From IMG/VR virus record IMGVR_UViG_3300010371_000807, positions 1 through 21,284 of that record: DNA of 21,284 bases; one strand, 5' to 3'. The first letter of the stretch is position 1, and each line of letters begins with the position of its first letter. Source of the DNA: a virus. The position numbers were made by a program, and so were the translations under genes. The notes under the pieces are model-generated. The model did not search any database. It was given only the letters and a program-made list of their open reading frames with translations, and was not told where the DNA came from. Below, piece after piece: positions 661 to 21,079 of this stretch.

Positions 661-1149
661 TTAGTAACCAGAACAGAATTGAAAGTGCATTGGGTCCTTG
701 CGATCCTGGTCAACAAAGTCACCGCCCCACGTGAAGCCGGCGCTTTTGAAGATCGAAATAACGCGAGGGTCCATGTCACCTACAGTGCCCATCTTATTTG
801 TTTCTGGGTTCAAGTCAATAGCTATTCCCCAGCTGTGTACTGAAAGACGATGTGACGCTCTCTCCGGTCGGTACATAAAACATCCACCGAATAGACTCGC
901 AAGAGAGCTGAGACCTTGCCGAAGAATTTGGCTGAACACATCTGAAAAGATAGGCATCATCAGTTTGTGACAGCGCATGTGAGTAACCTGTTTAGTTTTA
1001 TCCCAAGCTAGGGTCATGGGATAGGGGAGTTGAATTAAACTGATGATACTCTCTTCCCAGTCAGGAGAAAGAGTACCGTCGGGTTGAATGTAATGAGCAA
1101 TGTTACCGAATGTTGCATTGATCTCAGCTAAACCATTCGGAGGTCTCAT
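661..1149 (-). CDS. Endolysin, M15-family (VanY/L-Ala-D-Glu-type) zinc peptidase
   Basis: This 162-residue protein should cut the peptide stems of peptidoglycan at lysis. The C-terminal half carries the M15 signature: SVHSWGIAIDLN gives zinc ligands His105 and Asp112, and the closing DPMHFQF gives His155. The preceding FTWGGDF matches the WGG motif seen before the last histidine in the Peptidase_M15_4 type. The first 80 residues match nothing I know and may be a substrate-binding or helical cap. There is no signal peptide, so export should depend on a holin, which fits the candidate two genes upstream. Its ATG overlaps the stop of the coiled-coil gene (ATGA), implying coupled translation. The enzyme class is well supported; the exact bond cleaved is not. 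Confidence 0.88.
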   Translation of the reverse strand: MRPPNGLAEINATFGNIAHYIQPDGTLSPDWEESIISLIQLPYPMTLAWDKTKQVTHMRCHKLMMPIFSDVFSQILRQGLSSLASLFGGCFMYRPERASHRLSVHSWGIAIDLNPETNKMGTVGDMDPRVISIFKSAGFTWGGDFVDQDRKDPMHFQFCSGY

Positions 1150-1583: not shown

Positions 1584-1859
1584 TTACTGAGTAGGCGGCG
1601 GTACTGGTGGTGCTGGTACTGGTGGATCAGGCTGAGTGACGTTTGCACGCATCCAGCCTTTTACTGTCCCCCAAACTGCTCCTACGAGACCCGAGACAAA
1701 CGCTGACCAGGCATCGTGTGTTACGGGGATACCACCCTGGTAAGTGGTAAAAAATCCCACAACAGCAAATTCCACCGCTATGACAAAAGAATGGAATTTA
1801 CCGTTGAGTCGATATAGCGCAATGAGTTTTCGAAATTGCTGAACCAACCAATCTTTCAC
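1584..1859 (-). CDS. Candidate holin with two membrane segments
   Basis: This is a 91-residue protein. A hydrophobic segment (about residues 24-38, SFVIAVEFAVVGFF) and a second (about 51-70, WSAFVSGLVGAVWGTVKGW) are joined by a short polar turn, with an amphipathic basic N-terminus and a Pro-rich tail (PPVPAPPVPPP). Small size, two membrane helices and location directly before the endolysin genes fit a class II-like holin that opens the inner membrane for the endolysin. I chose GTG 1859 because AGGAGG lies six bases upstream and the codon overlaps the previous stop as GTGA; the GTG at 1865 touches the ribosome site and is unlikely. No specific holin family was recognised. A Glu inside the first helix (residue 30) is unusual. 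Confidence 0.68.
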   Translation of the reverse strand: MKDWLVQQFRKLIALYRLNGKFHSFVIAVEFAVVGFFTTYQGGIPVTHDAWSAFVSGLVGAVWGTVKGWMRANVTQPDPPVPAPPVPPPTQ

Positions 1860-2269
1860 TGGCACCCTCCTATCTGGGCAATCCCGCTCAGAGTATTCGT
1901 ACTACCTGAGATCGGAGCACCGAGAGTGAAAGACATCTGGCAACTCGTTTTCGCCGGTAATTGCGATGGCGTGATCGGGCCGCTGAGTTGATTCACAGGA
2001 GGCACTTGAGAAGGCGTAGCTGTGCCCGTGATCTGTGAGAAGCTAATACTGCTTGTGCTTGTGGGAGAGCTAACTTTTACAAATGGCGCTCCCTGATAGC
2101 TGAAAGCTACCCCATCGGTAGCTACGCAAATTACGCTGTCAGTGTTATGCACTGTACAGCTGGCTAAAAGCTGTTGAGTCTCAGTTCCGCTCCACGGCTG
2201 AGTGGTTGTCTGAGCCATTAGTAGAACAGCAATGGCAGCAACAGCAAGTCCACCAAAGAATTTTTTCAT
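1856..2269 (-). CDS. Small exported fibre-like protein
   Basis: This 137-residue protein has a clear Sec signal peptide (MKKFFGGLAVAAIAVLLMAQ). The mature region is rich in Ser, Thr, Pro and Gly, with a short imperfect repeat (GTATPSQVPP / GPITPSQLPA) typical of trimeric fibre shafts. There are four cysteines (CTVHNTDSVICVATDG, TSCQMSF, GGCQ) that could form disulfides only in an oxidising compartment, which agrees with export. It overlaps its upstream neighbour by ATGA, so it is translated with that large beta-helix protein and could be its partner, chaperone or tip. No enzymatic motif is visible. The signal peptide is well supported; the fibre role is inferred from composition and location. 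Confidence 0.75.
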   Translation of the reverse strand: MKKFFGGLAVAAIAVLLMAQTTTQPWSGTETQQLLASCTVHNTDSVICVATDGVAFSYQGAPFVKVSSPTSTSSISFSQITGTATPSQVPPVNQLSGPITPSQLPAKTSCQMSFTLGAPISGSTNTLSGIAQIGGCQ

Positions 2270-5130
2270 TGTCTGACTCCTGAGATTTTGTTAACGAGCG
2301 TTGGGATATCCGGCCCTAGGTCTTTCCCATCTGAGCCGGCATTGTGTAAAGGACTAGACGTGAGAAGGATGTAGTTACTGGGATTAAAACCGCTATCTCC
2401 AGTCCCATAGTTAGTGAAACCGGGCCCGGCGGTATTAGAGTAAAAGAAGTTATTCAACCCAGAGCCATTGGTTGGCCAATTAGCTCCGAGAGTACCGGTT
2501 GCCCAGTTGAAGACAGCATTGTGATCGACTGTCCAAGTGGTTACACAGGCTTGCAGAATTTGGTAAGCTTTGTTGGCATTATCAAAGGGCGTATCGCAAC
2601 CACCCGTATTACCGATATCCATCCAGCCAAAGCTTGCATAGGACCAGATGTTATTTTGAAGAGTGAAATTCTGCATCTGAGAATTTGTGCTAGGTCCGCC
2701 AAAAATGGTAAGCCCACGGATACCCTTCACAAAGAGGTTATGTGAGATATTGAGATTCTTTATCGTGTTCAAACCCTGATTAGTGGCATCGTTGGTTGCT
2801 AGAATCTCCATCTCATCGCCAGCGCTCTGCGCTGTGAGATTCCCGAGATTGAGATCATCGCCAATGAGATTATCATGGATTGATACATCCCATGCTCCCT
2901 GACTCTGACAAGTACTGCATCCAGCACCCATGAACGCATACACGGCGATACCGTATGCTACGTTGTATGAGTAGTTGTAACGATAGGTAAAGTCTCTCAC
3001 AGTACAAGTCGGGCAAGTCGCCACTATGGGACTCCCACCCGATTGCTGATTGATAGGAGCTACTGAGAAAGTGTAGCCAACTTGAGAGCTATACCATGTA
3101 TTCTCGACAACATTACTCTCGAATAAGGCACGAACTCCCGTTTTCATCTCAAAGCCATTTTTTCCGACGGGCCAACCTGTCCCAGCTACTACTGTCGTAT
3201 TGCCATTCCAACTCTGCGGCTTGAAGAAGTAATTACGACGTATCTCCAGATCACTGGGAGCGTCGGTATTACAGGTTACGAGAATGGTGCAGCCTGAAGG
3301 AGTGAGAGCAGGGCCTCCCGAGCCTCCCAAAAGCATTCCTTCTCCAGATGCTTCGCAATGATTGTTTAGGAGCTTATAGACACCCCACCCTGAGTTGGCA
3401 ATTGAACCAGAACCCCCTCCGACACACTGGGCATCAGTATTACCGTTGGCAGAGGTAGAGCCGTTGTCATAGAAATCCGAAAAGTAGTTATTGATTATCG
3501 CAATGTGATTCGACTGAGCCAGCCAAATTGCTCTTGTCGTGCTGGTGTCTGTCGAAACAGTCTGTGGGAAATTACCATCTTGATTAACCCCATGAAACCA
3601 ATCTCGGTCCCAGATGATGTTATTGGTCTGAGTCCCGCTCGAAGTTAGATCAACTAGATTGTAGATGGGAACACCCGCGGTCGTGACTCTTGTGATCTCC
3701 GCTCCCATAATGCGATAGTGATCACCACTGTTCGATTTGAACCCGTTAGAAGCAGTAGTGGTAACGATTTTGAATGTCAGCACTTGAGGTGAGGGACAAG
3801 GGTATGCTGGGCGATTCGGAATCGAGGCAACTCCCGACCAACAGGGAGTCATGCGTACGCCTTCTCCCGGGAAATTGATATTACTCATCCCAGTAGAGAT
3901 AATCCAAATCCAGTGTGCGTTATCACAGCCTTTTGCTGGCAAATTCACAGTACCCGTAATAACTGAGCCGGCAAGAACTTCAACAGTGTCACCGCAGGCA
4001 GCCGCATTGATATCGGCTTGTAGCGTAGCTAAAGTTGAATCTGGGCCTCTTACAATCCCGGGCGCAGGTGTATTTGAAAGCGCTGTGTTCATGCAAGCGG
4101 TAGGTAAGTTAGCAGGGCCGTCAGTAGTGGGCCCTATCCAAGTCCCATTTGGATTGCAATAGATGCTGTCATCTCCACTTACAGCACTCACCGTTATACT
4201 GTAAGCTTGTACGGCAACGTTTGAACTGGCATCGGTGACTTGCACCGTAAAGTTGTATGTTCCCGCCGTTGTAGTAGTTCCAGAGAGCGTACCAGTAGTG
4301 CCTGCTGTAGGAGTAGTTAGCGATAGTCCTGGAGGTAGTGGACCGCTCCCGACTTGTAGTCCCCATGTCAGCGGAGCTGTACAGTTCAACGTGTTAATGC
4401 TCTGTGAGTACGGGGAACCTACTGTGTTGCCCGGAAGTGAGAGAGTACTGATAGAACATGTCGCCCCCGAGTTAATGGTAATTGAGAGCGGCTGAGAAGC
4501 AGAATTACCGTTGTTATCGACCACATGGACTGTAAATGAATAAGTCCCTGCCACCGTAGGGGTACCGGCAATTGTACCTGTTGAAGCCCCGATGGGACCA
4601 GTCCCAGTTGGGAGTGAACCTGAGCTAATGCTAAAAGTCAAAGGCGCAACACAATTGGAAGTCAATACGGTTTGTGAGTACGCAGTCCCCGTAGTGCCAT
4701 TGGGCAGACTAGTTGTAGAGATCGAACAAGCTGGTTGAATCACAACTGTATAAGGCTGTTGTGCAATCTTGCCATTACTGTCGGTGACTTGCACAGTAAA
4801 AACATAAGTCCCAGCTGCTCCGAGAGGTGAGGCTGAGATCGTCCCGACTGTTCCGGCAGTTGGAGTCGTAAGTGATCCACCTGCGATAATCGCCCCAGAC
4901 GATATACTCCAAGTTAAAGGCGCAACACAGTTGGTCGTACTGATTGACTGAGAATAACTCGCCCCCGAAACTCCGCTAGGGAGAGACGCCGTAGTGATTG
5001 TGCAATTTGGCTGATTGTTGCCCCAGACTAACCCACTCCCGGTAGCAGCGACACCGCTCCCGCTCACAACCTGAGCTGAGAGACTTGCGCAACACATCAG
5101 CAAGGTCATCAGAATTTTTGTAAGTCTCAT
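2266..5130 (-). CDS. Exported adhesin-like protein: three Ig-like repeats plus right-handed beta-helix
   Basis: This 954-residue protein begins with a Sec signal peptide (cleavage likely after CCASLSA). Residues 43-132, 135-220 and 225-315 are three He_PIG-type Ig repeats, each opening with C-[ST]-I and SLP and closing with AGTY.FTV.V.D. Each carries a Cys pair exactly 25 residues apart (43/68, 135/160, 225/250), presumably a disulfide. The remaining ~600 residues look like a right-handed parallel beta-helix: many short strands, Asn-rich turns (NNIIWDRDW, IINNYF, NLNISHNLF) and further cysteines including CPTC and CSTC. Such folds occur in polysaccharide lyases and in phage tailspikes. I see no catalytic signature. 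ATG 5130 has AAGGAG upstream. It may bind or cut host surface glycans. The export signal is odd for a virion protein. Confidence 0.82.
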   Translation of the reverse strand: MRLTKILMTLLMCCASLSAQVVSGSGVAATGSGLVWGNNQPNCTITTASLPSGVSGASYSQSISTTNCVAPLTWSISSGAIIAGGSLTTPTAGTVGTISASPLGAAGTYVFTVQVTDSNGKIAQQPYTVVIQPACSISTTSLPNGTTGTAYSQTVLTSNCVAPLTFSISSGSLPTGTGPIGASTGTIAGTPTVAGTYSFTVHVVDNNGNSASQPLSITINSGATCSISTLSLPGNTVGSPYSQSINTLNCTAPLTWGLQVGSGPLPPGLSLTTPTAGTTGTLSGTTTTAGTYNFTVQVTDASSNVAVQAYSITVSAVSGDDSIYCNPNGTWIGPTTDGPANLPTACMNTALSNTPAPGIVRGPDSTLATLQADINAAACGDTVEVLAGSVITGTVNLPAKGCDNAHWIWIISTGMSNINFPGEGVRMTPCWSGVASIPNRPAYPCPSPQVLTFKIVTTTASNGFKSNSGDHYRIMGAEITRVTTAGVPIYNLVDLTSSGTQTNNIIWDRDWFHGVNQDGNFPQTVSTDTSTTRAIWLAQSNHIAIINNYFSDFYDNGSTSANGNTDAQCVGGGSGSIANSGWGVYKLLNNHCEASGEGMLLGGSGGPALTPSGCTILVTCNTDAPSDLEIRRNYFFKPQSWNGNTTVVAGTGWPVGKNGFEMKTGVRALFESNVVENTWYSSQVGYTFSVAPINQQSGGSPIVATCPTCTVRDFTYRYNYSYNVAYGIAVYAFMGAGCSTCQSQGAWDVSIHDNLIGDDLNLGNLTAQSAGDEMEILATNDATNQGLNTIKNLNISHNLFVKGIRGLTIFGGPSTNSQMQNFTLQNNIWSYASFGWMDIGNTGGCDTPFDNANKAYQILQACVTTWTVDHNAVFNWATGTLGANWPTNGSGLNNFFYSNTAGPGFTNYGTGDSGFNPSNYILLTSSPLHNAGSDGKDLGPDIPTLVNKISGVRQ

Positions 5131-5138
5131 AACTCTCC

Positions 5139-6686
5139 TTAGGGTTTCGGGTGATTCAAAAAAAACTTGTAGAAGATACCTATCGGGTCATAACCTGACG
5201 CGCTCGCTGGTCCTATACCTGAATCCATAAACCCATTACACGGATCAGTAAAATCACAAGTGGAGTTGCGTAGATCGAGAGCTATCTTCGAGCTTAGATT
5301 GGGATTATTGCAACCGAGTGTGTCATTGCCGTTCCAGTCGAATGAACACCAGGGCGAACCCGTTGCATTGCCTTTGAAGCGATAGGCATAGACCTCAGTA
5401 CCGAGTAGTCCTCCTGTATCTTTTCTAACTTGTAAGTTCGAAGGTAGCCCATTGTGAGAACCATCGAATAAGCCGCTACAAAAACTCGTTCCGACATTGT
5501 TCGGTAAATATGTGTGACTCGTAATCTGATCGGTGAAGTCCCAGTAATTCATGGTCGTATCAATCGTATCGGGATGATAGGTAGTCCCGCTACTCACCGT
5601 GAAATTCGTACCGCACATGTCTTGAACGCCGCCGCTTGCAGCGCTTGTAATTCCTGGCTCGATGATTACGGAGATCGGCTGAATTGGCGGAGGCAGCGTA
5701 GAACCAATGTGTTGCTGGGCTGTAGTTGCTACCGTATAGGTTGCTGTAGAGGGGTTATAATCCATACCAAACATTTGAGAGTCATTGTAAGTAGCAACGG
5801 CAGCTACGAGATCAGCTTCCTGAGAAGCGAATTGGAATCCCATCGGAGAGATGAATGACCCCGACGGCCACTCAGTCGCTATATAGACTTTCTTGGGATT
5901 AAGTTGAAGGTCTCTTACGGTAAGCAATAGAACTTGTCGAACAAAATCTGGGTCATTCGGCTCTGTGCCTGCTAACCAACTGAAGGAACTTGTGGTGATG
6001 CCAATGAAGTCCCATTTCTCAGTGGTATTAGCTGTATTAAACATTCCCTCTGGGCATACGACTACGGGAGCAGGTGACGGTACGGTGTGGATATAGGGTG
6101 CCCAGCCTCCGACTTCACCTTGAGGCGGACCACACGGTTGTCCCGTTTGAGTCGGAGTAACTCCGTGACCTCCACCGCCGAAAACGATGATCAGTCCACT
6201 TTGTCCAGCTACGTAATTCGTAGGGATCACAGTGAGCCAATGACGAGTTACTATGGCTGAAACCTCTTGGTGACTCATGTTGCACGAGTTGAATGTGCCA
6301 ACACCTCGATTGGGATAGCCATTAGCGCAGTCGTTTGTAGCTGCTGGGATTGTCCCGGAGACTGTAATAGGGACATCTTTAGTCTGACCTGACAGAGTGG
6401 CACGAATCACAGCTGATCCATTTGAATTCGGGGCTGTATAGACACCATTGCTAGTCACTGACCCAATGCCAGAGATAAGTGACCACGTACAAGTATTGCT
6501 CACGCTATTTGTGCAAGAGAACGGGACAGAGGCAGTCTGTTCAACGGTGGCGGAAGACGGGAAGGTTTGAATAGAGTTAGTGGGAGTGGGCCATACTGTA
6601 GAACCTGTAAAACTCCCAGATAACTGCACTTGCGCAGAGCAAGTCAGACAGCACAGAAATGCAATGATTATCAGGAAATTACGCAT
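5139..6686 (-). CDS. Exported Ig-domain plus degenerate esterase (PHB-depolymerase/feruloyl-esterase-like) protein
   Basis: This 515-residue protein has a Sec signal peptide (MRNFLIIIAFLCCLTCSA). Residues about 41-109 form a Big_2-like Ig domain (TWSLISGIGSVTSNGVYTAP). From about 140 on the layout recalls the LpqC/PHB-depolymerase branch of alpha/beta hydrolases: an oxyanion-type strand and loop (LIIVFGGGGHG, 165-175), then DPDFVRQVLLLTVRDLQLNP before the nucleophile elbow KKVYIATEWPSGS (266-277). The family's G-x-S-x-G is not intact there, since Gly and the nucleophile Ser align with Glu and Pro. The expected catalytic His after EVYAYRFKG is also not seen. It may be a carbohydrate-binding pseudo-enzyme or use shifted residues (Ser275, His411). 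ATG 6686 has GGAG seven bases upstream. The family assignment is from pattern memory and moderate. Confidence 0.7.
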   Translation of the reverse strand: MRNFLIIIAFLCCLTCSAQVQLSGSFTGSTVWPTPTNSIQTFPSSATVEQTASVPFSCTNSVSNTCTWSLISGIGSVTSNGVYTAPNSNGSAVIRATLSGQTKDVPITVSGTIPAATNDCANGYPNRGVGTFNSCNMSHQEVSAIVTRHWLTVIPTNYVAGQSGLIIVFGGGGHGVTPTQTGQPCGPPQGEVGGWAPYIHTVPSPAPVVVCPEGMFNTANTTEKWDFIGITTSSFSWLAGTEPNDPDFVRQVLLLTVRDLQLNPKKVYIATEWPSGSFISPMGFQFASQEADLVAAVATYNDSQMFGMDYNPSTATYTVATTAQQHIGSTLPPPIQPISVIIEPGITSAASGGVQDMCGTNFTVSSGTTYHPDTIDTTMNYWDFTDQITSHTYLPNNVGTSFCSGLFDGSHNGLPSNLQVRKDTGGLLGTEVYAYRFKGNATGSPWCSFDWNGNDTLGCNNPNLSSKIALDLRNSTCDFTDPCNGFMDSGIGPASASGYDPIGIFYKFFLNHPKP

Positions 6687-6699
6687 AATCCGTCTCCAT

Positions 6700-7959
6700 T
6701 TAATAGACGACTGGGAATCCTGTTGTTGCGGGTGGAGTTGAACTAGAGGCTGCTGTGATCCATCCTACCTCTTTCGCTGCTCCCGTTGCGTTCCAAGTGA
6801 TTGTCCAGCCATCTGGGTTGAAACTCGTGAATGACGCCGCGGGATTATTCGTACCATCTCTATCCAAAAGTACTTGTGCTACTGAGCTGGAAGACTTGGC
6901 AACAGTACTGATGGCACTCACCTCTGTTGAATTCGCAAAGACTTGATTGGTCCCATCAGTTGCACCAATAGATTCCACTTCATCGCTTGTAGTGCTAGCG
7001 AAGGCCGTTGTGGAATTTGTTGAAAGCATGAGAAAAGAAGGTTGAAATGCTTCACCAGTTACAGTCTGTGTCGTCGCTGTTGTAGGTTTGGCTCCTGTAC
7101 CTACGTCCCATTGTCCTCCCTGAATGTCTAAAAATCCGAACTGCCACGCCGTTGCTGAAGCTTTAGTTTCATTGTAGTCAAAACCTGTAGCAGTAAATCC
7201 ATTGAAGTCAGCAGCTACGATCTGTGTGCCATCTGTGAAGATCAACTGAACGACTTTTGTGTTTTCACTTCTCGAAACGGCATGTAGATTTGCTGTGGTA
7301 TTTTGATTATCCGTAGTCATTCCCGTAAGAGAGAATCTTTTTGTAGTACTTACGGCTGCTCCGAAACAGAATCCAGCACTAGTACCTGTTGTCGGGCTTG
7401 GTACTAAACTTCCCATCGTAAACAACATATTCCCTTGAAACCCAGCGGATGTTACGCTATGAACTCCCGTTGAACTGGTCGTATTGAATGTTCCAACAAA
7501 AGTGTTTGTAACGTCTGAGCCGCCGATAGCAATGAAATTGATTAGCCAAGCTGCCGATGGGGTGGCATTGAATGTAGCAACAAAGTTATTGGAGTTGTAG
7601 ACTATTCCCGTAATTTGCCCGCCTGTTGCGGTTGTCGGTGTGCCGTTTGTAAAGATTCTCAGAGCGACAGCCGTAAAGGCCATTCCAGCATTCGAAGTAG
7701 CTACAGCATCGTCACTAGCCCAAGAATACGATTCCATGTGGCCGGCGCTATCTACAAAGCCCATTGAGAAAATAGCTGGCCCAGATTCAGTCCCTGAAGT
7801 CTTCCCAGCTGTCCACAGTATTAGAGCCTTCGGCTGAAAGCTGGTCGACACAGTTGTAGTTGCCCCTACAGTAGACGCTGTGAACTGGCCCACTTGAGTA
7901 AGCAGTGAACCCCAAGCTAGTTGGGGCAGTAAGAGTATTAACCACAATAGCTTTTTCAT
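6700..7959 (-). CDS. Exported beta-rich protein with three internal repeats
   Basis: This 419-residue protein has a signal peptide (MKKLLWLILLLPQLAWG). The mature chain is three tandem copies of a roughly 131-133-residue unit. Each contains an FQ element before a hydrophobic strand (FQPKALILW at 41, FQGNMLFTMG at 174, FQPSFLML at 305). The copies end with related strands: NFIAIGG, FGFLDIQGG and VGWITAAS. The middle of each copy has S/T-rich strands and an N/D-G-[FW]-x-[AI]-T element (FNGFTAT, NPDGWTITW). Similar two- and three-copy beta proteins of unknown function occur among phage structural proteins as I recall them, but I cannot name a family. It follows the 488-residue fibre by one base and could be a fibre or receptor-binding unit, or a secreted accessory. 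No catalytic motif is visible. Confidence 0.75.
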   Translation of the reverse strand: MKKLLWLILLLPQLAWGSLLTQVGQFTASTVGATTTVSTSFQPKALILWTAGKTSGTESGPAIFSMGFVDSAGHMESYSWASDDAVATSNAGMAFTAVALRIFTNGTPTTATGGQITGIVYNSNNFVATFNATPSAAWLINFIAIGGSDVTNTFVGTFNTTSSTGVHSVTSAGFQGNMLFTMGSLVPSPTTGTSAGFCFGAAVSTTKRFSLTGMTTDNQNTTANLHAVSRSENTKVVQLIFTDGTQIVAADFNGFTATGFDYNETKASATAWQFGFLDIQGGQWDVGTGAKPTTATTQTVTGEAFQPSFLMLSTNSTTAFASTTSDEVESIGATDGTNQVFANSTEVSAISTVAKSSSSVAQVLLDRDGTNNPAASFTSFNPDGWTITWNATGAAKEVGWITAASSSTPPATTGFPVVY

Positions 7960-7960
7960 G

Positions 7961-9427
7961 TTATTCCGCCTGTACTGTCAGGAGTCGTGGGATTGTAATC
8001 ACAGCCTTTTTAGCATTGATCGCAGATGCCGCCGTCCCTGAGAGAGCGACTTTGATCATCACAGGACTCCCAGGAATGCAGTTATTCAAGCTGGTCATTG
8101 CTGTGAATTGACCACTTTTAGCCCAATTGACATTGGCACTTGCCATCGTCTGAGAAGCAAAAGCGCTCTCGGCGATGAATGCCGGGTCATCTGTAACTGA
8201 GCCATCTTGCTTACTGCAAGCGCTTGATACAGTCCAAATTACTGTACCCGTGGTGTTTGCACCACTCGCATAGAAGATAGAGATAAACGGCTGCTGTGTC
8301 GTATCCCAATCAGCCGGCAATTCAAATACAAATTGAAGAGCTGCTCCTGTGCTGGGAATTGCTTGAAGAGCCGCTCCTATGTTGTTTGTGCCAGCTCGTA
8401 GCGTGGGTGTCCATTGCCCAGATGCATAAGTTACTCCTGAGACAGCTGTTCCTCCAGGAGCTGCTGCGAAGGGGACAATCTTAGCATCTGGAAAGCTGAT
8501 GTAAGTGCAGCTCTTCGAAGTTCCCGAAGATATGCAGGTTTGTTTAGCGGCACTGGCAGCCGCAGAAGCCGTAACAAGATTAGCAGAAGCTACCCCAGAA
8601 TCTGTGAGGCTATTAGGTCCCGTAGCTTTCGGGAGATTACCATTTACCATCGTTCCATCTGACGCCGCAAGAGGTACAGAGGACCCGTTGTTCAAACACA
8701 TCTTGAACCAGTGACTAACCGAGTCAGCCCAGAGAACGTCAATGCCTAAAGCACAAGCAATACTTGAACTTGAAGCTTCTGTACCTGAGAAAGCATTCCC
8801 AGTCCCAGAAAAGCTTGAGGCAGTCATACCCCCGGAAATATTTATACTACTAGGAAGTCTCGAATTGTTGAGTGTACCGCTGCTAATGTTCGTGGCGTTG
8901 GTCGTGTCGGTTGTAGCTGAGGGAGCAAAGCTTGTCCCGTTAGTCTTTGTGCAAGTTACTACTCCAGTAGCGAAATTTATAGTACAGTCGCCTGAAGCTG
9001 TCCAACCACCCAATGCCCCAGAGTTATTATACTGACCTTGCCCTGTTAGACCACCTGCTGAAGCAGAACCGGCAGGAAATGTCCCCCAGGAGCTTCCTCC
9101 CCAGCGACAGAATACGAGTGTTGAGCCTCCTCCAACAGTACAGTCAGTACTCCCAGCGCCGTCAGTTACCACAGCGGGAGTGCCGAGTGGTTGACCGGCT
9201 GGAAGCTTCGCTACTGTCGAAATAATAACCCCGCCCGTTGGTAGGTTCTGTGGAGTTGCTTTTGCATAGTGACCCGCAATACAGGTGTAGAGAAATCCCT
9301 GATAGGAGGCGAAGGTCGTAGTGCAAACTTGCCCCGTAGGGTCAGTAGCCCAGTAGGTGATATCTCCTTGACCATGAGCGAAGGAGGTAGCGAAGAGCAG
9401 ACAGAAAAAAAGCAATGTCTTTTTCAT
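7961..9427 (-). CDS. Exported tail-fibre-like protein
   Basis: This 488-residue protein has a Sec signal peptide (MKKTLLFFCLLFATSFAHG). Next come a chitin-binding-like or carbohydrate-binding-like opening (YWATDPTGQVCTTTFASYQG) and a Gly/Ser/Thr/Asn-rich shaft with fibre-type runs such as NATNISSGTLNNSRLPSS. The last ~170 residues (from YISFPDAKIVPFAAAPGG) form a compact beta domain with paired cysteines, likely the receptor-binding head. The start has AGGGG upstream and lies ten bases after the preceding fibre gene. Composition, size and location fit a tail fibre. The signal peptide does not fit assembly in the cytoplasm. It could instead be a secreted protein carried by the phage. Confidence 0.78.
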   Translation of the reverse strand: MKKTLLFFCLLFATSFAHGQGDITYWATDPTGQVCTTTFASYQGFLYTCIAGHYAKATPQNLPTGGVIISTVAKLPAGQPLGTPAVVTDGAGSTDCTVGGGSTLVFCRWGGSSWGTFPAGSASAGGLTGQGQYNNSGALGGWTASGDCTINFATGVVTCTKTNGTSFAPSATTDTTNATNISSGTLNNSRLPSSINISGGMTASSFSGTGNAFSGTEASSSSIACALGIDVLWADSVSHWFKMCLNNGSSVPLAASDGTMVNGNLPKATGPNSLTDSGVASANLVTASAAASAAKQTCISSGTSKSCTYISFPDAKIVPFAAAPGGTAVSGVTYASGQWTPTLRAGTNNIGAALQAIPSTGAALQFVFELPADWDTTQQPFISIFYASGANTTGTVIWTVSSACSKQDGSVTDDPAFIAESAFASQTMASANVNWAKSGQFTAMTSLNNCIPGSPVMIKVALSGTAASAINAKKAVITIPRLLTVQAE

Positions 9428-9437
9428 TGATTTCCCC

Positions 9438-10268
9438 TTATTGACTCAAAACAGGTGTAACTTCGAGAAAGGTTGTCGGAGCTGGGTTAAGTCCCAATAG
9501 ACCGTTCTGTCTTGTAACAGTGGCATTGGCATTACACATCGCGTATAGAGTGAAGTTGACAACACTCCCGGCCGCATACGTGTGAGATGATATCTCAGAA
9601 GCAGCATTACCGACGTAGCCCAAGCCATTGGCATCTTGACCGCAAAAAGCGAAAGGTAGATTGTTGAGAGTATCTACTACCATCGTAGCAAGCACATTCG
9701 GCCCGATGGTTGCCCACAGACCATAGCGTATGTCCGCCCGATAGACGCCGGCAGCACTCGGGAATGTCACAGCCAGATTGATGATAGCTGCCTGAATGTT
9801 TGCCGTTAATCCTACGGGAGCCGGGAGAATCGAACGCTGAGGAACAGGTAGATTAAAAGGCTGAAGCGAACTTTGCACAAAGGCTGTAGTAGCCAGTTTA
9901 GTTGTATTATCGCCCACTGTGGGAGTCGGCGCAGTAGGCGTTCCCGTGAAATTGGGAGAAGCGAGCAAGGCAAATGGAGTCATGTCTACCTGAGTCATGA
10001 TATTTGCCAAGACCGCTTCGAGATTGGCTAGTGCCGAGGCTGGAGTAGCGCTCCCGTCATTCGGAGAATATCCCTTGTTAGCCATCATATTGGCCATGGC
10101 TGCAATCCAGATACTCCACTGATAAAAAGCCTTGTTAGCAAGAGCACTTGCGAATATGGCATTCGCTGGAGCACCGCCAGAGCGAACACTGTCCCCTGAA
10201 TATGCAGTATCCGTTTCCTGATTGAGAGCGTTTGGGTTCCACTGTAGAAAGTTTGTTGCGCCGGGCAT
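9438..10268 (-). CDS. Tail fibre protein (cytoplasmic, no signal peptide)
   Basis: This 276-residue protein lacks a signal peptide. The N-terminal ~95 residues (opening MPGATNFLQWNPNALNQ, with helices FASALANKAFYQWSIW) look like a baseplate-attachment domain. Residues about 105-130 hold the widespread fibre motif GDNTTKLATTAFVQSSL, which marks the shaft of many tail fibres. The C-terminal ~145 residues are beta-rich (YRADIRYGLWATIGPNV) and probably form the tip domain. AGGAGA lies four bases before ATG. It directly follows the DUF2612 gene, the usual place for the main receptor-binding fibre in P2-like tails (after gpI). This is the most conventional host-recognition protein in the window. 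Confidence 0.83.
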   Translation of the reverse strand: MPGATNFLQWNPNALNQETDTAYSGDSVRSGGAPANAIFASALANKAFYQWSIWIAAMANMMANKGYSPNDGSATPASALANLEAVLANIMTQVDMTPFALLASPNFTGTPTAPTPTVGDNTTKLATTAFVQSSLQPFNLPVPQRSILPAPVGLTANIQAAIINLAVTFPSAAGVYRADIRYGLWATIGPNVLATMVVDTLNNLPFAFCGQDANGLGYVGNAASEISSHTYAAGSVVNFTLYAMCNANATVTRQNGLLGLNPAPTTFLEVTPVLSQ

Positions 10269-10277
10269 TGTGTCTCC

Positions 10278-10937
10278 TTAAGCGAAATGTCCAATATCAA
10301 ATCCAGCAATGAACGCATTGTTTTGATCGAAACCGAATGCTGGAAGCGTAGTACTGAAGACGTAGTTATACAGCACAGCCTCAGGCCGTGGAATGATATA
10401 ACCATTCACAATCAAATCCTCGATAATACTGCTGAATGATCCCGTCAAGAAAATGGTGGCGGTCATATTCTGATTATCTTGGAGTGCAATCGTTCCCCCC
10501 GGAAAGAGCTGTGACCATAGCGAGTAGAGACTGGGAATCTGACCATTCCATTGGTTTTGCGCGATCTTGGCCCTCAGCAGAATACGATAGGTCACGTCAT
10601 CAAGAGTTGGACTGACCCCGGCTGACGGTTGAAAACCTACTGTTCGACTCGCTCCCACAAGTAATCCGAGTACATCTAATTGAGCCCCTACAGCGATATC
10701 GAGATCAAAAGAGGAATCTACAGAGCAAAGACACTGAAAAGCATCAGCAAAGATTTGCAGTGTAGATCGTAGCCAGAGAAGGAATTGATTCGTATTCTGA
10801 TACTCACTGGTAATCAGAGAAACGTAGTAATCGACTGGGCCATTACCCCCCGTGCCGACACCATAACCCCCTTCGCCGTAGCCACCTACGCCGTAACCTC
10901 CACCCTGATTAAAAGTATTACAAGGGAACGATGACAT
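10278..10937 (-). CDS. DUF2612 baseplate protein (gpI-position tail protein)
   Basis: This 219-residue protein has its DUF2612 signature between about residues 70 and 200: SFDLDIAVGAQLDVLGLLVG, then the hallmark YRILLRAKIAQNQWNGQIPS followed by LYSLW. Members follow baseplate wedge gpJ in contractile phages, in the place of P2 gpI, and link the wedge to the fibres. Here it sits between the gpJ block and the conventional fibre, as expected, except that one exported fibre-like gene is inserted before it. The N-terminus carries a Gly/Tyr repeat (GGGYGVGGYGEGGYGVGTGG), probably flexible, which is not part of the domain. The ATG lies four bases after the previous stop, with only a weak ribosome site (GAGA). 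Confidence 0.88.
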   Translation of the reverse strand: MSSFPCNTFNQGGGYGVGGYGEGGYGVGTGGNGPVDYYVSLITSEYQNTNQFLLWLRSTLQIFADAFQCLCSVDSSFDLDIAVGAQLDVLGLLVGASRTVGFQPSAGVSPTLDDVTYRILLRAKIAQNQWNGQIPSLYSLWSQLFPGGTIALQDNQNMTATIFLTGSFSSIIEDLIVNGYIIPRPEAVLYNYVFSTTLPAFGFDQNNAFIAGFDIGHFA

Positions 10938-10941
10938 TTTT

Positions 10942-12324
10942 TTATCTCGTAACCTTCCAGTTGATAGTAGCAGCTGCTGGAGTTACTGATCCGGCAGTGG
11001 GATTGCAAACGAGAAAGTTTACATTCCCTGCGGTTACATAAGCGAGAACATGAAGACTACCTGTATACCCCGTTCCGGGCGCAGCATTAAAAGCCCAGTC
11101 AATTACATCTGTTGAGAGGACTCCTGTTGCTGAGGCGGTTACAACTGTTGCGCAAGAGGTTGAGGGGATAACAGTTGTGCCAAGAGCCGCTGTCCCATTA
11201 GCTATTTTGAAGGAAGCAAAATTGTTCACAAAAGCGGTGGTAGCGATCTTGGTCGAGTTGTCACTCGTTGATTGTGTCGTTCCTACGGTATTCGAAGGAA
11301 GAGCAACAGCGGTTGAACCACTGACATCGCCAACACAGAGACCAGAAGTGTTCGAAGCCCCTCGAATCTGAAATGAGCCATTCGCAAATGTCAATCCGCC
11401 ACAAGATTGTGAGTTGTCATAGATGCGAGCAATGGCCCCATTAGTACCTGCTTGAAGTATGCTAAGTGCCCAGCGGATGCCGGCATAACCGACGAATGTA
11501 TGACCTGTGAATGTGACGCTGGAATCTGTAGAGTTGTTGATGATGAATTGGGAGGTATCGAGAGAGTGAATCCCAGAAGAGGTCCAAGTATTGGCATCGG
11601 GAGCTGTAAATGTGGCTGTCGACCCCAAAGTCAGCGTATGAGTTGAAAAGTTCCAAGTGAAGTTCGAATCACCTGCCATTATTCCATTGTTATTGGCGAT
11701 GACCTGGGTGTTTACGCTCGAAGTCAAACAGGTTGCACCCGCTGAGGTTAGACAAGTAAAAAGCCCCGAGCCGGAATCTCCATACACTCGGATACTCCCT
11801 GCTGATGGGTTCCCGGGACTTGTACCGACCGGGAAGTCAAGCTTTGCAGTGCCTATGCCACTAGTTGTAAATGACACGCAAACTAGATGCCCGCTCCCAT
11901 CGGTAGTACAGAGATCGGGCGAGAGCACTGTTCCATTAGAGGCATAGTAACCCAGCTGACCTGTATTTCCCGTGTTATTACCTGACGGTGAGCAACTTGC
12001 TCCTGTTGATGTAATCCCTGACCACTGAGTGGTAGCGAGATTAAAGAAGACTCGACAGAATCCGCTTGCTGGATTTGCTGGGGCAGAGACAGCTGCAAAG
12101 TCTAAATAGTTCTGAAACATCCCGTGAGACACATTCCACGCGGGAACAACAGCACTTCCCCCGAAATAGTTATCGAGAGTCGTGAAGTTGGCATTCATAT
12201 AAGTGTCCCAATTCGTCGTACCGTGATAGGGCGTATATAGCCCGATGTTCGGAGTAGTCGGGACTGTCTGGGCGCTCACCAGAGAAGCGCAAAGTAAAGC
12301 GATGAAGATCAGAAGTTTTTTCAT
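10942..12324 (-). CDS. Exported tail-fibre-like protein
   Basis: This 460-residue protein has a Sec signal peptide (MKKLLIFIALLCASLVSAQ). An N-terminal module, PNIGLYTPYHGTTNWDTYMN followed by ANFTTLDNYF, is found in fibre-like proteins, often at the head-proximal end. A Gly/Ser/Thr-rich beta shaft follows, then the fibre motif TSDNSTKIATTAFVNNFASF (around residue 360), closely similar to the one in the 276-residue fibre downstream. The C-terminal ~90 residues are a small beta domain with paired cysteines (STSCATVV, FLVCNPT). It lies between the wedge gene and DUF2612, inside the structural block. Fibre features are clear; the signal peptide and insertion point are odd. Confidence 0.8.
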   Translation of the reverse strand: MKKLLIFIALLCASLVSAQTVPTTPNIGLYTPYHGTTNWDTYMNANFTTLDNYFGGSAVVPAWNVSHGMFQNYLDFAAVSAPANPASGFCRVFFNLATTQWSGITSTGASCSPSGNNTGNTGQLGYYASNGTVLSPDLCTTDGSGHLVCVSFTTSGIGTAKLDFPVGTSPGNPSAGSIRVYGDSGSGLFTCLTSAGATCLTSSVNTQVIANNNGIMAGDSNFTWNFSTHTLTLGSTATFTAPDANTWTSSGIHSLDTSQFIINNSTDSSVTFTGHTFVGYAGIRWALSILQAGTNGAIARIYDNSQSCGGLTFANGSFQIRGASNTSGLCVGDVSGSTAVALPSNTVGTTQSTSDNSTKIATTAFVNNFASFKIANGTAALGTTVIPSTSCATVVTASATGVLSTDVIDWAFNAAPGTGYTGSLHVLAYVTAGNVNFLVCNPTAGSVTPAAATINWKVTR

Positions 12325-12333
12325 GGTTTCCTC

Positions 12334-13521
12334 TTAGACAGAATTCACAGTAACGGTGTTCGCTTGCGCAACTTGATAAAAGTTCATGACCAAGTCAACG
12401 GAAGCAGTTGGATTAGGAGCAGTCCCGAGAAAGAGTCCTTCAATAAGCACAATTGGATTGGTGAGATCAGGGTTGACATTCATGGCAATTGCCATAAGCC
12501 CGCTAAAGCTCACAGTCTCACCGATCTGGAGATCGTTCAGGTAGTTAGTGATAGCCGTCTGAATCGCTGTGATCGTTGCAGTTGTGCCTCCTGTGAGCAG
12601 ATGAGCATTGATCGTAACGTATATTTGTTGATACGTGGGACGCGAGAATCCAACAGGGGTAACAATGCCTGTATTCGGATCGACGATATTAACTGTCGTA
12701 GCTCCAGACGTGCTGGTCGGATTCATGAATGGGCCAATCCCACGATTATCATAAATCGCCTGAGCTACTGCGGCATCTGTTCCTCCCTCAACTACAGCAG
12801 TCACCGAGTGAGGGGGATTACCGAAAGCATCTACAGCTCCAGTTGCATTTTCGAGTACTTTATAGCGAGTAACGCCGGCGGTCGCTGCAATCGCAGCAAT
12901 GGTCCCGGAAAGCAGTGTTTGAGAAGGCAGCTCAACACTCAAAGCTTGTCTCTCTCTCAATTGAGCGTCCGTTTCGATAGGTTGACCGACTACAGCAGGA
13001 TTGGGATTCGTCACAGAGGTCCAGCCAGCCACTGGGGTAGCAATAGCGTTGACTTGACCCGCTAGGGCATTGATTGCTCCCGCTGTCTCACAAGTAGCCG
13101 TGACTGTGACTGATCCCCCTGCCCCTATCGTAACAATAGCGGGCAAGTCCCATTTATTACCGTTGACATCGGTTGCTACTCCATTATTTATCACTGCTCC
13201 AGGTGTACCCGTGACTAAGAGCGAGACAATAGAGTTGGTTGCAAGCTTCCTAACCAAACCATTGATCTTCACAAGAGAGTCAAGAGCCGCTCCGATAGCA
13301 AAATTCGGAGCACGGTTTGTAACAGCCAGCTGAATGCCTTTCATGACATCGCTAGCCATGAGAGATAGTACCGATATCCATTGAAAGTCAGCCGAGTCAT
13401 TCCCAAGATAGACGGTTTGACCGTAGATAGACTTATACTGCTCGGTCAGATTATCGAGGATATCCGCGTAGCTTGGGATCGACAGACCAGCAGCCGTAAT
13501 TTGCGGAGGTACGTATGTCAT
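12334..13521 (-). CDS. Baseplate wedge protein, gpJ/gp47-like
   Basis: This 395-residue protein has the Baseplate_J layout. The opening helix (SIPSYADILDNLTEQYKSIY) leads to the wedge N-terminus with NRAPNFAIGAALDSLVKING. A beta middle domain (AVINNGVATDVNGNKWDLPA) follows, then the diagnostic QPIETDAQLRERQALSVELP. Next comes the helix-strand unit with TRYKVLENATG and HSVTAVVEGG, and a C-terminal domain (YQQIYVTINAHLLTGG). In contractile tails it pairs with the gp25-like protein and forms the wedge ring that changes shape to trigger sheath contraction. Its ATG overlaps the gp25-like stop (ATGA). Length is typical for the minimal wedge type, and nothing is missing. Confidence 0.93.
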   Translation of the reverse strand: MTYVPPQITAAGLSIPSYADILDNLTEQYKSIYGQTVYLGNDSADFQWISVLSLMASDVMKGIQLAVTNRAPNFAIGAALDSLVKINGLVRKLATNSIVSLLVTGTPGAVINNGVATDVNGNKWDLPAIVTIGAGGSVTVTATCETAGAINALAGQVNAIATPVAGWTSVTNPNPAVVGQPIETDAQLRERQALSVELPSQTLLSGTIAAIAATAGVTRYKVLENATGAVDAFGNPPHSVTAVVEGGTDAAVAQAIYDNRGIGPFMNPTSTSGATTVNIVDPNTGIVTPVGFSRPTYQQIYVTINAHLLTGGTTATITAIQTAITNYLNDLQIGETVSFSGLMAIAMNVNPDLTNPIVLIEGLFLGTAPNPTASVDLVMNFYQVAQANTVTVNSV

Positions 13522-15658: not shown

Positions 15659-16548
15659 CAGCTTTGACCTGCTCCGCAAGGAAATACAGGAACGGTAGCT
15701 CCTGAGACTTGTATGTTATCGATGGTCTCCTGCTGCAATTGAAAAGCTCCGCTGATCTTACGGTAGTAACGCCACGCAACTCGACCGAATCCCTGTACAT
15801 AGTAGGTAGATTCTTTGTCAATGAATGTTGCTCCTGTAATGTTCCCGCCGTAGTAATAATCATTCTGAATCGTGGGAACACCATTGACGTTATCGATGAC
15901 TCCGCCACCTGCTCCAGAATCAATACTGCCGGCCCAGGTCATATTAAAGGGACCAGATGTAACGGTTTGAATATCTCCCAGATCAAGAAGAGTCGAGGAG
16001 ACCTCACAGTCTGTAGTTCTTACGTACTTGTTGGGAGCTGGATTGTTGATAACAATAACAGAGCCAGGTACAAAAAAACGAGGCATGAACTGCACAGGAG
16101 TAAGAAATCGCTTGTAAGCTCTCGAATAACCCCAACATCCGCCGGGAGAACCGGCTGCTACACAAGCAGGCTGATCGACTGGATCGCCATCCTCAGTAAT
16201 CCAATGAAAGAAGTTATTGAGATCATACTTCTCAATGTCCCACGGGTTCCCTGCTACGTTCTTAATCCAGATGAACACTCCGGGTGGAAATCCCACGGGA
16301 TAAGTCGGGTCGGTGTCCAAGATGTGATAGGAATTTGTATTTGTTCCCGTCATGTGCTTGGATGAGCGATTAGCTAGGCTCATGATCGCCCAATTCAGCA
16401 GGTCAATAGGCGGAGTAGCGCCTCCTCCCGAAGGTGGAACTGTAACGGCAACTTCAACCAGAACCGTATTGCCCACCTCTGTGGGAGTATCTCCCCAGAG
16501 CAGGAGAAAATCTTTTCCGAGATTCAGATTGTTGGGACGATCACTCAT
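15649..16548 (-). CDS. Unknown baseplate-block protein between plug and hub
   Basis: This 299-residue protein matches no family I recognise. It has no signal peptide or membrane segment. It opens with FLLLWGDTPTEVGNTVLVEV, has a helix (LLNWAIMSLANRSSK), a Trp/Asp-rich middle (WDIEKYDLNNFFHWITEDGD), a Cys-bearing loop (CVAAGSPGGCWGYS) and a beta-rich C-terminus (DYYYGGNITGATFIDKESTY, then GRVAWRYYRK). It starts at TAATG, sharing a base with the plug-fusion stop, and overlaps the hub at its end, so it is made in step with baseplate parts. Structural protein is the most likely role, for example a hub-associated or adaptor subunit; this is context only. Confidence 0.8.
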   Translation of the reverse strand: MSDRPNNLNLGKDFLLLWGDTPTEVGNTVLVEVAVTVPPSGGGATPPIDLLNWAIMSLANRSSKHMTGTNTNSYHILDTDPTYPVGFPPGVFIWIKNVAGNPWDIEKYDLNNFFHWITEDGDPVDQPACVAAGSPGGCWGYSRAYKRFLTPVQFMPRFFVPGSVIVINNPAPNKYVRTTDCEVSSTLLDLGDIQTVTSGPFNMTWAGSIDSGAGGGVIDNVNGVPTIQNDYYYGGNITGATFIDKESTYYVQGFGRVAWRYYRKISGAFQLQQETIDNIQVSGATVPVFPCGAGQSWWV

Positions 16549-18302
16549 TAGCTCACCCTACTGGCATTAAACACGGTAGCACTCCCTATCTTGAGATAGG
16601 CAAACTGAGCGAGTAAATTTTGAGACTTACCAACTCCCGTAACAAATGGTACGGAGTCGAGTAAGAGATTGCCATTTTGATCATAGATAGTTGCTACCCA
16701 GTACTGTGCGATCTCGTTATAACGTAGCGCCACCTGTAGTGGTATGGACTTACCGTCTACGCTCACAGAGATATTCCAGAACTGGTTAGGTGAATTATCG
16801 AGCGGGACAGTTTGAGCTGTGCCCGATACTAGCCCAGAAGGTGCCACATAATGATCTCCTCCCGGCGGAGATGGTACGTTTGAACTCAGCGTGATAGGGA
16901 TATGGGCTGAATTTATGATGGCGATATCAAACCACTCAAATGCTGTGGGAATGCCTCCTGGAGTCATCGCCCAAAGAGTCATATCGATAATAGAGGTCTT
17001 GTGTGGGTTGCTATTAGTGTCATCCAAGTTATGAAAACGCCCAACACTTGGGTCTGTATGAGTAGGCCCAAGTAGGACAGTAGAAAACCCAGTAGAGAGA
17101 TCATTTTTTAATAGCGCAAATCCCGCTATCTCAAACCAGGTTGCTCCGCCATTCAGCCTACTCGTGTTGGGAGTACAAACTCTAAAACCAAAGAGACCCG
17201 GCACCATTGAAGAATAGCCAATTTTGGTGGCGTTAGAAGTTACAATTGTCGGCGTTCCTGTGATATCCATGCTCACAGAACCCGCATTGTAACTTTGACT
17301 GACAATCAAATGACCAGTTATGGGGTCATAAGTAAGAGCGTCAATCTCGCTGGCATCTCCGAAAGGTAGAGCAGGCATCGCATACAGTGTTTGTGTTCCT
17401 AGAGGAACAGCTATCTTTAAGAGCTGTGCATTTGCGGGAACCAGATGGTTAGTGACTCGCCACAAATTACCAGACCCGTCAAAAGCGCAAGGAGTGCTGA
17501 GAATAACGGAACTCCCAGAATCGTACGTGATATGAATAACAACGCTCATGTCAGAGGTTCGAACCACAAACGTCTCAAAAATTTTGTCACTGACATTGTT
17601 GTTATTGCACCCAGCCCACGCCACGTAGTCAATCCCGCCTATGCTGACAAGATCGATATCTCCTGCGCTCCCCTTAAAGGTGCCGGCAGTAGTCACACTA
17701 CCAACAATAGAGCCATCGGAAGTTTGTAGTTTATCGACTACGAAGTTGTTAGTTCCCGTAGCTATATGCGACCACACAACATAAAGATGAAGACCGTCAC
17801 TCGAAACTATCAGAGCGCCCGGCTGAAAAGTGTCAGTATTGTGAACCAGAACTGACCATACCACAGAATTCGTTGCACGATCAAATTTAACAATTCTAGC
17901 TTCTTCAGGAGGCCCGAGGTTGTCGGAGTAGAATCCCCAATAGGCGCTCGTATCTGTAGGGGAAAACACAATTTTGCTATTGAATGTATCTGAAGGTTGA
18001 GGGGTAAAGGGCAGAGCAAAACTGCCATGATTGACTACGGCATAACCGCTGGTAGGAACGATATCCAGATGATCTACATAAATACCGGGACTTACAGCAC
18101 TACTATCTACCGTAACGGTTTCTGTAACGGGAGTAGTGCCAGAAGTCGGAGCAACGGAATCCCAAGATTGCGATACAGAGGCCGTATAAGGAACTTCAAA
18201 GTTGGGGGAATCACTCGAAGTTACAGCAACCGTCTTATTAGACGGATTGGGAGGTCCAATTGTAAAACTCAATGATGATGGATTTCCCTCTAAGTTTATC
18301 AT
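16548..18302 (-). CDS. BACON-like domain + beta-propeller-like region + baseplate plug domain
   Basis: This 584-residue protein starts with a BACON-like Ig domain (residues about 5-90: SLSFTIGPPNPSNKTVAVTS, then WDSVAPTSGTTPVTETVTVD). Next is ~370 residues of strand-rich repeats resembling a beta-propeller (NSVVWSVLVHNTDTFQPGAL, DGLHLYVVWSHIA, GIDYVAWAG, DGSGNLWRVTN, ALTYDPITGHLIVSQSY). Residues 478-584 are a plug domain of the cyanophage Pam3 gp18 / DUF6983 type (VPLDNSPNQFW, LRYNEIAQYWVATIYD, NGNLLLDSVPFVTG, LKIGSATVF). About two thirds of positions match the plug of the upstream protein by hand alignment. ATG 18302 overlaps the upstream stop by ATGA. Free plugs are short; this one is a C-terminal fusion. 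No signal peptide. Plug identity is solid as a pattern; the propeller call is less sure. Confidence 0.85.
   Translation of the reverse strand: MINLEGNPSSLSFTIGPPNPSNKTVAVTSSDSPNFEVPYTASVSQSWDSVAPTSGTTPVTETVTVDSSAVSPGIYVDHLDIVPTSGYAVVNHGSFALPFTPQPSDTFNSKIVFSPTDTSAYWGFYSDNLGPPEEARIVKFDRATNSVVWSVLVHNTDTFQPGALIVSSDGLHLYVVWSHIATGTNNFVVDKLQTSDGSIVGSVTTAGTFKGSAGDIDLVSIGGIDYVAWAGCNNNNVSDKIFETFVVRTSDMSVVIHITYDSGSSVILSTPCAFDGSGNLWRVTNHLVPANAQLLKIAVPLGTQTLYAMPALPFGDASEIDALTYDPITGHLIVSQSYNAGSVSMDITGTPTIVTSNATKIGYSSMVPGLFGFRVCTPNTSRLNGGATWFEIAGFALLKNDLSTGFSTVLLGPTHTDPSVGRFHNLDDTNSNPHKTSIIDMTLWAMTPGGIPTAFEWFDIAIINSAHIPITLSSNVPSPPGGDHYVAPSGLVSGTAQTVPLDNSPNQFWNISVSVDGKSIPLQVALRYNEIAQYWVATIYDQNGNLLLDSVPFVTGVGKSQNLLAQFAYLKIGSATVFNASRVS
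16551..16871 (-). repeat. Plug-domain duplication, copy 2
   Basis: This stretch codes for 107 residues from SPPGGDHYVAPSG to the end of the 584-residue protein. It is a diverged direct copy of 18302-18628. Linker (SPPGGDHYV), core and C-terminal FNAS all match, and similarity is visible at the DNA level. A tandem duplication of the plug with different N-terminal partners, or recombination between two plug genes, explains it. Confidence 0.9.
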
Positions 18303-20524: not shown

Positions 20525-20757
20525 AGTATAGAGCTGAGTGCCTAAATTCCAGTTAGTGGCTATATCATTTGGGCCTACCCCCGTACCACCTCCTGCAATT
20601 CTTACGGTAGTTCCGTCGATGATATTTATTTGCCAGAGTATGCCCGTTGCTTGATCCGCAACATATACGAGATGGTCGCCCAGAATAGTTACGCCCCAAA
20701 CACCGCTGAAAGCAGACCCGGGCGGATTCTGGATGTCGGCATAACTAAAAGTTGTAC
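20525..20757 (-). other. N-terminal coding extension of the NHL-plug gene in a frame without its own start
   Basis: The NHL frame stays open from GTG 20524 back to a TGA at 20777-20779, and it reads like propeller: AFSGVWGVTILGDHLVYVAD followed by DGTTVRIAGGG. No ATG, GTG or TTG occurs in this frame. A well-placed ATG (20760) lies in the neighbouring frame, where it reaches a TAA after 23 codons. A single extra base in the TTTT at 20747-20750, or another one-base change within the 69 bases after the ATG, would join them. Sequencing or assembly error, a true mutation, or recoding are all possible. Confidence 0.7.
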
Positions 20758-21068
20758 CATTTCTTGATCTCCTGAATCAGGTACGGCTCATCATCAGACT
20801 TGAACGCCAGGAAGGACAGCACTTCTTCAGGCGGATATTTCCTCGCCAACTGGCCGAATGCAGCCTCAAGAAAAGATGTTGCATATCCTTCCGTGCCGTC
20901 AAGGTCAATCAGCAACGTACCTCCCTCAGCACGAACGTGTTCATAGGCAGGGAGCAACAGCGTTTCCAGAAATTCCTCACCTGAGGAATCGCCTTCGGCC
21001 TTAGCACGGGGGCCTGGGGTATCCGAGAACTCTTTCGCAATTGAAATTCTTTGTAGTGTGGCTGGCAT
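20745..21068 (-). CDS. STAS-like DUF4325 protein
   Basis: This 107-residue protein matches the DUF4325 pattern along its length: EFSDTPGPRAKAEGDSSGEE followed by FLETLLLPAYE (13-43), a central strand GGTLLIDLDGTEGYATSFLE (49-68) with Ser65 at the place of the STAS phospho-acceptor loop, AAFGQLARKYPP, and a last strand and helix (VLSFLAFKSDDEPYLIQEIK). STAS-like proteins bind partners by switching, classically with a GHKL kinase/anti-sigma factor. DUF4325 genes often sit beside an ATP-binding gene. I chose ATG 21068: AGGA lies eight bases upstream and overlaps the previous stop (TAAAGGAATCTGTTATG). The TTG at 21101 lacks a site. Its end overlaps the start signal of the NHL-plug gene, so it seems translated with the structural operon. 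Role in the phage unknown. Confidence 0.85.
   Translation of the reverse strand: MPATLQRISIAKEFSDTPGPRAKAEGDSSGEEFLETLLLPAYEHVRAEGGTLLIDLDGTEGYATSFLEAAFGQLARKYPPEEVLSFLAFKSDDEPYLIQEIKKWYNF
20758..20773 (-). promoter_or_regulatory. Ribosome binding site and likely start codon for the NHL-plug gene
   Basis: AGGAG (20769-20773) is followed after exactly eight bases by ATG (20758-20760), inside the end of the STAS-like gene. This is as good a start signal as any in the window, and it makes the two genes overlap by 16 bases. The frame it opens ends early, as described for the extension at 20525-20757. Confidence 0.6.
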
Positions 21069-21079
21069 AACAGATTCCT

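Follow-up and report, generated by a model that had tools for sequence, protein, structure and literature searches.

Apparent export of tail fibres through the secretion channel of the host in many viruses of soil Acidobacteria-like bacteria

Tailed-phage assembly is taught as wholly cytoplasmic, and the question raised by this locus is why products of a tail operon should carry signal peptides (SPs) for export. The stretch analyzed here (the window) is a linear viral record of 21,284 bases, read as the minus-strand baseplate-to-lysis part of a contractile-tail phage; besides the features of Table 1, it encodes a baseplate hub-like protein and small neighbours. A sequence-only reading had proposed that six proteins, starting at 12324, 9427, 7959, 6686, 5130 and 2269, begin with Sec SPs, several having paired cysteines, and that these proteins (a) function outside the virion, (b) join the particles after lysis, or (c) have N-termini that anchor them in the membrane or are left over from captured host genes. 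All six ORFs exist on the minus strand. Their genes belong to the tail/baseplate operon and form the fibre block that separates baseplate J from the lysis region, the first lying between the baseplate J and DUF2612 genes and the other five after the fibre without SP, with the start of the last overlapping the stop of the fifth (ATGA-type coupling). Our results suggest that, in many viruses of soil Acidobacteria-like bacteria, tail fibres appear to be exported by the secretion channel of the host, to lose their leader and to form disulfides.

Table 1. Features of the window from the lysis region to baseplate J (SP, signal peptide; a slash marks the predicted cut between the signal and the first mature residue).
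Feature	Coordinates	Strand	Remarks
Peptidase_M15_4 endolysin	661..1149	-	SP genes lead straight into the putative lysis region
Small membrane protein close to the endolysin gene	1584..1865	-	Holin-like, by position only
SP protein 6, 137 aa	1856..2269	-	Signal MKKFFGGLAVAAIAVLLMA/Q; 4 mature Cys
SP protein 5, 954 aa	2266..5130	-	Signal MRLTKILMTLLMCCASLSA/Q; 22 mature Cys; three He_PIG Ig-like domains, then a long stretch of unknown fold
SP protein 4, 515 aa	5139..6686	-	Signal MRNFLIIIAFLCCLTCSA/Q; 3 Cys in signal, 12 mature (15 in all)
SP protein 3, 419 aa	6700..7959	-	Signal MKKLLWLILLLPQLAWG/S; 1 Cys, exception to the even rule
SP protein 2, 488 aa	7961..9427	-	Signal MKKTLLFFCLLFATSFAHG/Q; 12 mature Cys (13 in all)
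Non-exported fibre/adaptor, 276 aa, NFLQWNP...QETD type	9438..10268	-	Conserved in the clade, without SP
DUF2612 baseplate-associated protein	10278..10937	-	Without SP
SP protein 1, 460 aa fibre	10942..12324	-	Signal MKKLLIFIALLCASLVSA/Q followed by fibre N-domain TPNIGLYTPYHGTTNWDTYMNANFTTLD; 10 mature Cys (11 in all); C-terminal part with a TTAFV motif
Baseplate J protein	12334..13521	-	Anchor for collecting relatives

SPs were scored with a home-made procedure (n-region charge, h-region, residues at -3/-1) calibrated on 37 annotated Escherichia coli genes, which does not tell N-terminal membrane anchors apart from SPs. The six N-termini, in the order of the starts given above, scored 14.8, 12.8, 11.4, 13.7, 11.6 and 12.5, compared to 11.4-14.6 for the exported E. 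coli controls OmpF, SsuA, LdtD, MepK and ElfA (OmpF 13.9, SsuA 12.2, LdtD 12.9); one lipoprotein and three membrane proteins among the E. coli controls also passed, and the cytoplasmic maximum was 3.1. All six present the layout of a Sec/signal peptidase I substrate, with a basic n-region, a hydrophobic core and small residues at -3/-1, and no other gene of the window scored above 2.0, including the fibre at 9438-10268, which the sequence-only reading had already described as lacking a signal. None of the 1028 internal windows of the SP proteins passed the scorer, and 7.4% of the shuffled N-termini did so because the N-terminal composition is itself hydrophobic. The predicted cuts precede Q or S, and none of the six has a lipobox with a cysteine at +1 of the cut site, the lipobox-like matches in 1856-2269 and 5139-6686 lying outside it; a lipoprotein reading, as for superinfection-exclusion lipoproteins, was consequently dropped. 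Membrane-anchored surface proteins were also considered, and this reading does not fit, as only 2 of 84 SP proteins have a hydrophobic C-terminal stretch and none has a PEP-CTERM signal. Shine-Dalgarno-like sequences are found 5' of most of the six starts (the weakest at 7959) and complete genomes of cultured phages show the trait again, so that wrong start codons, assembly errors or gene-calling errors are hardly credible as its source, even though a few loci (L046 and Tunturi_4 gp111) do hinge on the choice of start.

To assess conservation independently of the trait, relatives were gathered through the baseplate J protein, a search blind to SPs. In the tree of 63 baseplate modules, the trait clusters in one clade with 39 members (SH-aLRT 96). 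Counting genes of at least 190 aa within 9 kb of baseplate J on its 3' side, SPs occur in 69/155 large genes of this clade, versus 1/208 on the 5' side (P=2e-29); outside the clade, where the relatives are mostly from Firmicutes or unassigned, the counts are 1/90 (3' of baseplate J) and 2/119. Within the clade, 33 of the 39 members pass the scorer, and in three others the SP is missed because of truncation or the threshold. The usual order is baseplate J, DUF2612, an adaptor fibre of 190-390 aa without SP, and then one to four SP genes encoding 200-1600 aa. The extension of SP prediction to the structural genes of related phages, a check that had been proposed for this locus, thus shows a conserved trait and confirms that exported and non-exported fibres differ, more generally than first noticed.

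Where it was recognized, the sequence behind the signal is of phage fibre type. Among the six SP proteins of the window, a fibre N-domain or fibre repeats were recognized in 10942-12324 and partly in 7961-9427, whose residues 177-219 form a fibre-type repeat matching a cyanophage tail fibre. Fibres with the TPN[IV]GLxxPxxGSxNWNxPLNYNFNxLD domain start with an SP ending just before the domain in 17/17 cases (one after start correction), at a distance of about 2-6 residues. A scan with the mature domain alone retrieved 54 distinct N-termini, of which about 24 have an SP directly 5' of the domain; the rest have no SP, and the protein begins 2-6 residues before the domain. Since the same domain starts proteins with or without an SP across phages, the signal has been added ahead of what is otherwise a usual fibre N-terminus. 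Ordinary tail fibres of tailed phages assembled in the cytoplasm (NKGLxxPxxGxxNWDVPLNxNF-type N-domain, as in loci L184-L210) share the N-terminal domain, the position in the tail region and the repeat-rich body, but they start 2-6 residues before the domain, lack an SP, and have few cysteines without any bias toward even numbers. The domain gave no convincing match in the PDB.

The sequence of the signals themselves is variable: the mean frequency of the top residue is 0.36 within the SP versus 0.82 over the 31 columns behind it, and the Q at the junction is invariant in the domain fibres. As judged from these alignments, this is the pattern of a signal peptide, unlike that of a docking peptide. 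In a variant layout (L148, L158, L170, L173, L176, L179 and L183), the fibre N-domain is a separate SP-less protein of 126-136 aa, often with SP fibres after it that have an NPxxQIxWP-like motif in common at their mature starts; Tunturi_4 gp112 is similar to this short protein.

Exported bacterial proteins favour even cysteine numbers (PMC7678975), and the mature cysteine count is even in 67/75 SP proteins versus 103/256 proteins without SP from the same loci (P=5.5e-15), with a cysteine density 2.5 times higher in the former. With one representative per family, the proportions are 41/48 and 20/49 (P=6.7e-6), and no bias is seen in the non-SP adaptors of the same phages (16/37) or in non-SP fibres (5/13). 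In 33 SP proteins, the signal itself holds an odd number of cysteines, and 29 of these 33, a count that includes some near-duplicate rows, are even only without the SP, the full-length protein being odd; SP proteins 1, 2 and 4 of the window behave in this way. The paired cysteines noticed in several of the six proteins are accordingly found in five of them, the 419-aa protein being the exception. This parity after SP removal is the strongest evidence, from the sequences, for working signals that would be removed and for disulfide folding of the remainder; the signals look functional, and the even mature count would suit an oxidizing compartment. DsbA-like and VKOR genes are present in genomes of candidate hosts.

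These patterns bear on the third of the initial options. A role of the N-termini as uncleaved hydrophobic peptides for docking or membrane anchoring, with no export involved, could draw on the similar N-termini of several fibres of one phage and on the blindness of the scorer to anchors, but the variable N-termini before 31 conserved columns, the invariant junction Q and the parity attained only after SP removal make it very improbable. We also consider it improbable, though a little less so, that the genes are morons or captured host genes for secreted proteins, residing in the tail operon with their SPs carried along as baggage. He_PIG domains, host-style A/Q ends (a small residue followed by Q occurs in 10/22 Terriglobia SPs) and the distant resemblance between residues 31-116 of one protein and two ORFs from Acidobacteriota genomes would fit such an origin; against it, the position is kept in dozens of phages and recurs in three unrelated cultured ones, the mature N-terminus is a phage fibre domain, the parity indicates continuing selection for oxidized folding, and the 515-aa SP protein 4 has no full-length host homologue in 199 genomes. 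On conservation, parity and recurrence in cultured genomes, uncleaved docking peptides, host-gene relics and gene-calling artefacts were all rejected, and option (c) is thereby contradicted: the SP is variable, the phage fibre sequence behind it is conserved, and the same domain starts SP-less fibres elsewhere.

The remaining choice is between a function outside the virion and joining the particles. In the former, the exported proteins would be secreted before lysis and would either mask receptors, preventing superinfection or re-adsorption, or cut capsule and EPS for the spread of the progeny. We regard this as rather unlikely, but it has arguments of its own: export signals are present on all these proteins, the SP block adjoins the lysis genes, and some members are enzyme-like, such as Tunturi_2 gp14, annotated as a pectin lyase. 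The conserved fibre N-terminal domain retained right behind the SP, the fibre-type repeats and the near absence of C-terminal anchors speak against it, as do the late position and large size, unusual for exclusion proteins. A published parallel exists in Xanthomonas phage PBR31, whose gp40 is an SP-bearing SGNH esterase, thus a phage hydrolase with an SP beside lysis genes; it differs in being one enzyme, for which the authors propose a help in lysis, without a fibre block (PMC10975493). Joining the particles at or after lysis is favoured over the non-virion role because the SP is followed by a retained fibre N-domain; the scarcity of anchors likewise favours docking. Against the explanation that we prefer, set out below, several SP proteins have host-secretome-like domains (He_PIG) and one SP protein of the window has a single cysteine; moreover, the adaptor could itself be the receptor-binding fibre, the SP proteins then being non-virion.

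The explanation that we hold to be probable, by a modest degree, is that the SP proteins of the window are fibre-type proteins made late, exported via Sec, oxidized and docking at lysis, in a host that is probably an acidobacterium (Acidobacteriota). Receptor- or glycan-binding proteins of fibre type would be produced late in infection, pass through the host Sec channel, be cleaved by signal peptidase I at A/Q and be oxidized in the periplasm to a disulfide-bonded form, while the non-exported baseplate and adaptor fibre would be assembled in the cytoplasm. The exported fibres would then attach to the particles once the neighbouring lysis genes bring the contents of both compartments together, or shortly after release. 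Such an export would permit disulfide-dependent folding and stability in soil and would keep the distal fibres off the particles until lysis; the exported fibres may also mask host receptors before it. The statistics of the sequences show the signals, their conservation and location, the fibre domain behind them and a cysteine pattern indicative of cleavage and pairing; from these we infer Sec export, signal peptidase I cleavage and periplasmic oxidation, and, more weakly, docking to adaptor-bearing particles at lysis.

Cultured phages extend the trait beyond this phage group. The Tunturi phages, infecting the genus Tunturiibacter, are the first cultured viruses of Acidobacteriota: Tunturi 1-3 are podovirus-like, 4 siphovirus-like and 5 myovirus-like, and only Tunturi 1 and 2 are related; the main text describing them contains neither the term "signal peptide" nor virion proteomics (PMC11924767). 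The search with the mature fibre domain matched Tunturi_4 and Tunturi_5, both weakly (E 0.01 and 1), and these were judged by their annotated genes. SP genes are gp12, 13, 14, 16 and 17 in Tunturi_2, gp113 and gp114 in Tunturi_4, plus gp111 if an upstream in-frame start is used, and the six consecutive gp337-342 in Tunturi_5; no SP fibre was found among the genes of Tunturi_3. Tunturi_2, _4 and _5 likewise carry blocks of SP-bearing, cysteine-even tail fibre genes; their genomes are otherwise unrelated (PMC11924767). The gp111 gene (L106 10871-13966) is annotated from 11228, and its ORF reaches the upstream start at 10871, which has a better Shine-Dalgarno match and adds an SP similar to that of gp113.

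The phage stretch of viral locus L004, including one SP fibre, also occurs in a Terriglobia MAG contig, and no further prophages of this type were found in 396 Acidobacteriota genomes beyond the starting one. The host of these phages is most likely Acidobacteriota, that of the window being deduced from its relatives. The trait is not universal in Acidobacteriota-linked phages, being absent from Tunturi_3 and from the Bryobacterales locus L092, a member of the clade, and no SP fibres were found in the controls from another Gram-negative phylum, the crAss001 tailspikes and Flavobacterium phage 11b.

Virion proteins that reach the inner membrane through cleaved SPs and are only then assembled are familiar from pIII and pVIII of filamentous phages, which differ in that assembly occurs in the membrane, where the filament is extruded, with neither tail nor lysis. 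In streptococcal prophages, PblB is a tail-type protein found outside the cell, and one pneumococcal PblB has a predicted SP; it differs as a single protein of a Gram-positive prophage, studied as a host adhesin, and the description used here reports no disulfide pattern for it (PMC4508584). In the open-access literature, we found no published description of an SP-bearing tail-fibre block in tailed phages. We propose only tentatively, as an idea somewhat short of probable, that tailed phages of Acidobacteriota build their particles in two compartments, the cytoplasm supplying head, tail and adaptor, the periplasm supplying receptor-binding fibres with disulfide bonds, and the two sets joining at lysis, and that within one host phylum this habit arose in, or spread among, lineages of podo-, sipho- and myovirus-like type. 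If true, conserved, host-linked, exported and disulfide-bonded fibres would break the rule of wholly cytoplasmic assembly; if non-virion, the SP proteins would amount to a large, secreted class of phage effectors in a phylum that is among the commonest in soil. With the trait present in three cultured phages, the reading is already open to experiment. Annotation is affected too: soil-phage fibres may be thrown out as secreted proteins of the host, and SP-bearing starts may be trimmed, as seemingly in Tunturi_4 gp111.

Several minor observations concern individual proteins. SP protein 4 is hydrolase-like by eye; it matched nothing in the PDB by sequence, no viral relative turned up in the scan, and structure prediction without relatives gave a mean pLDDT of about 32 and 33 for SP proteins 4 and 5. 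In L013 (19949-20983) and L015 (16565-17602), an SP gene of the fibre block has a mature start that is metallophosphoesterase-like by eye, and the exported set may therefore include enzymes. Small SP proteins of 120-150 aa occur beside the large ones (Tunturi_5 gp339 and gp340, lying in L107 19949-20732; Tunturi_2 gp16; 1856-2269 in the window) and could be periplasmic chaperones or fibre tips.

Elsewhere in the window, 16548-18302 and 18299-20524 encode tandem proteins, each with a C-terminal Pam3 gp18-like baseplate-plug domain, which is a stand-alone protein of 110-140 aa in relatives and is here fused to a BACON-like N-terminal part in the first and to NHL (beta-propeller) repeats in the second. 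A STAS-like DUF4325 gene (20745-21101) at the 5' end of the tail block is an odd neighbour for baseplate genes. The 202-aa product of 47-655, beside the endolysin, has a lipobox-like LSAC some 36 residues from its start and may be an outer-membrane spanin or a different lipoprotein.
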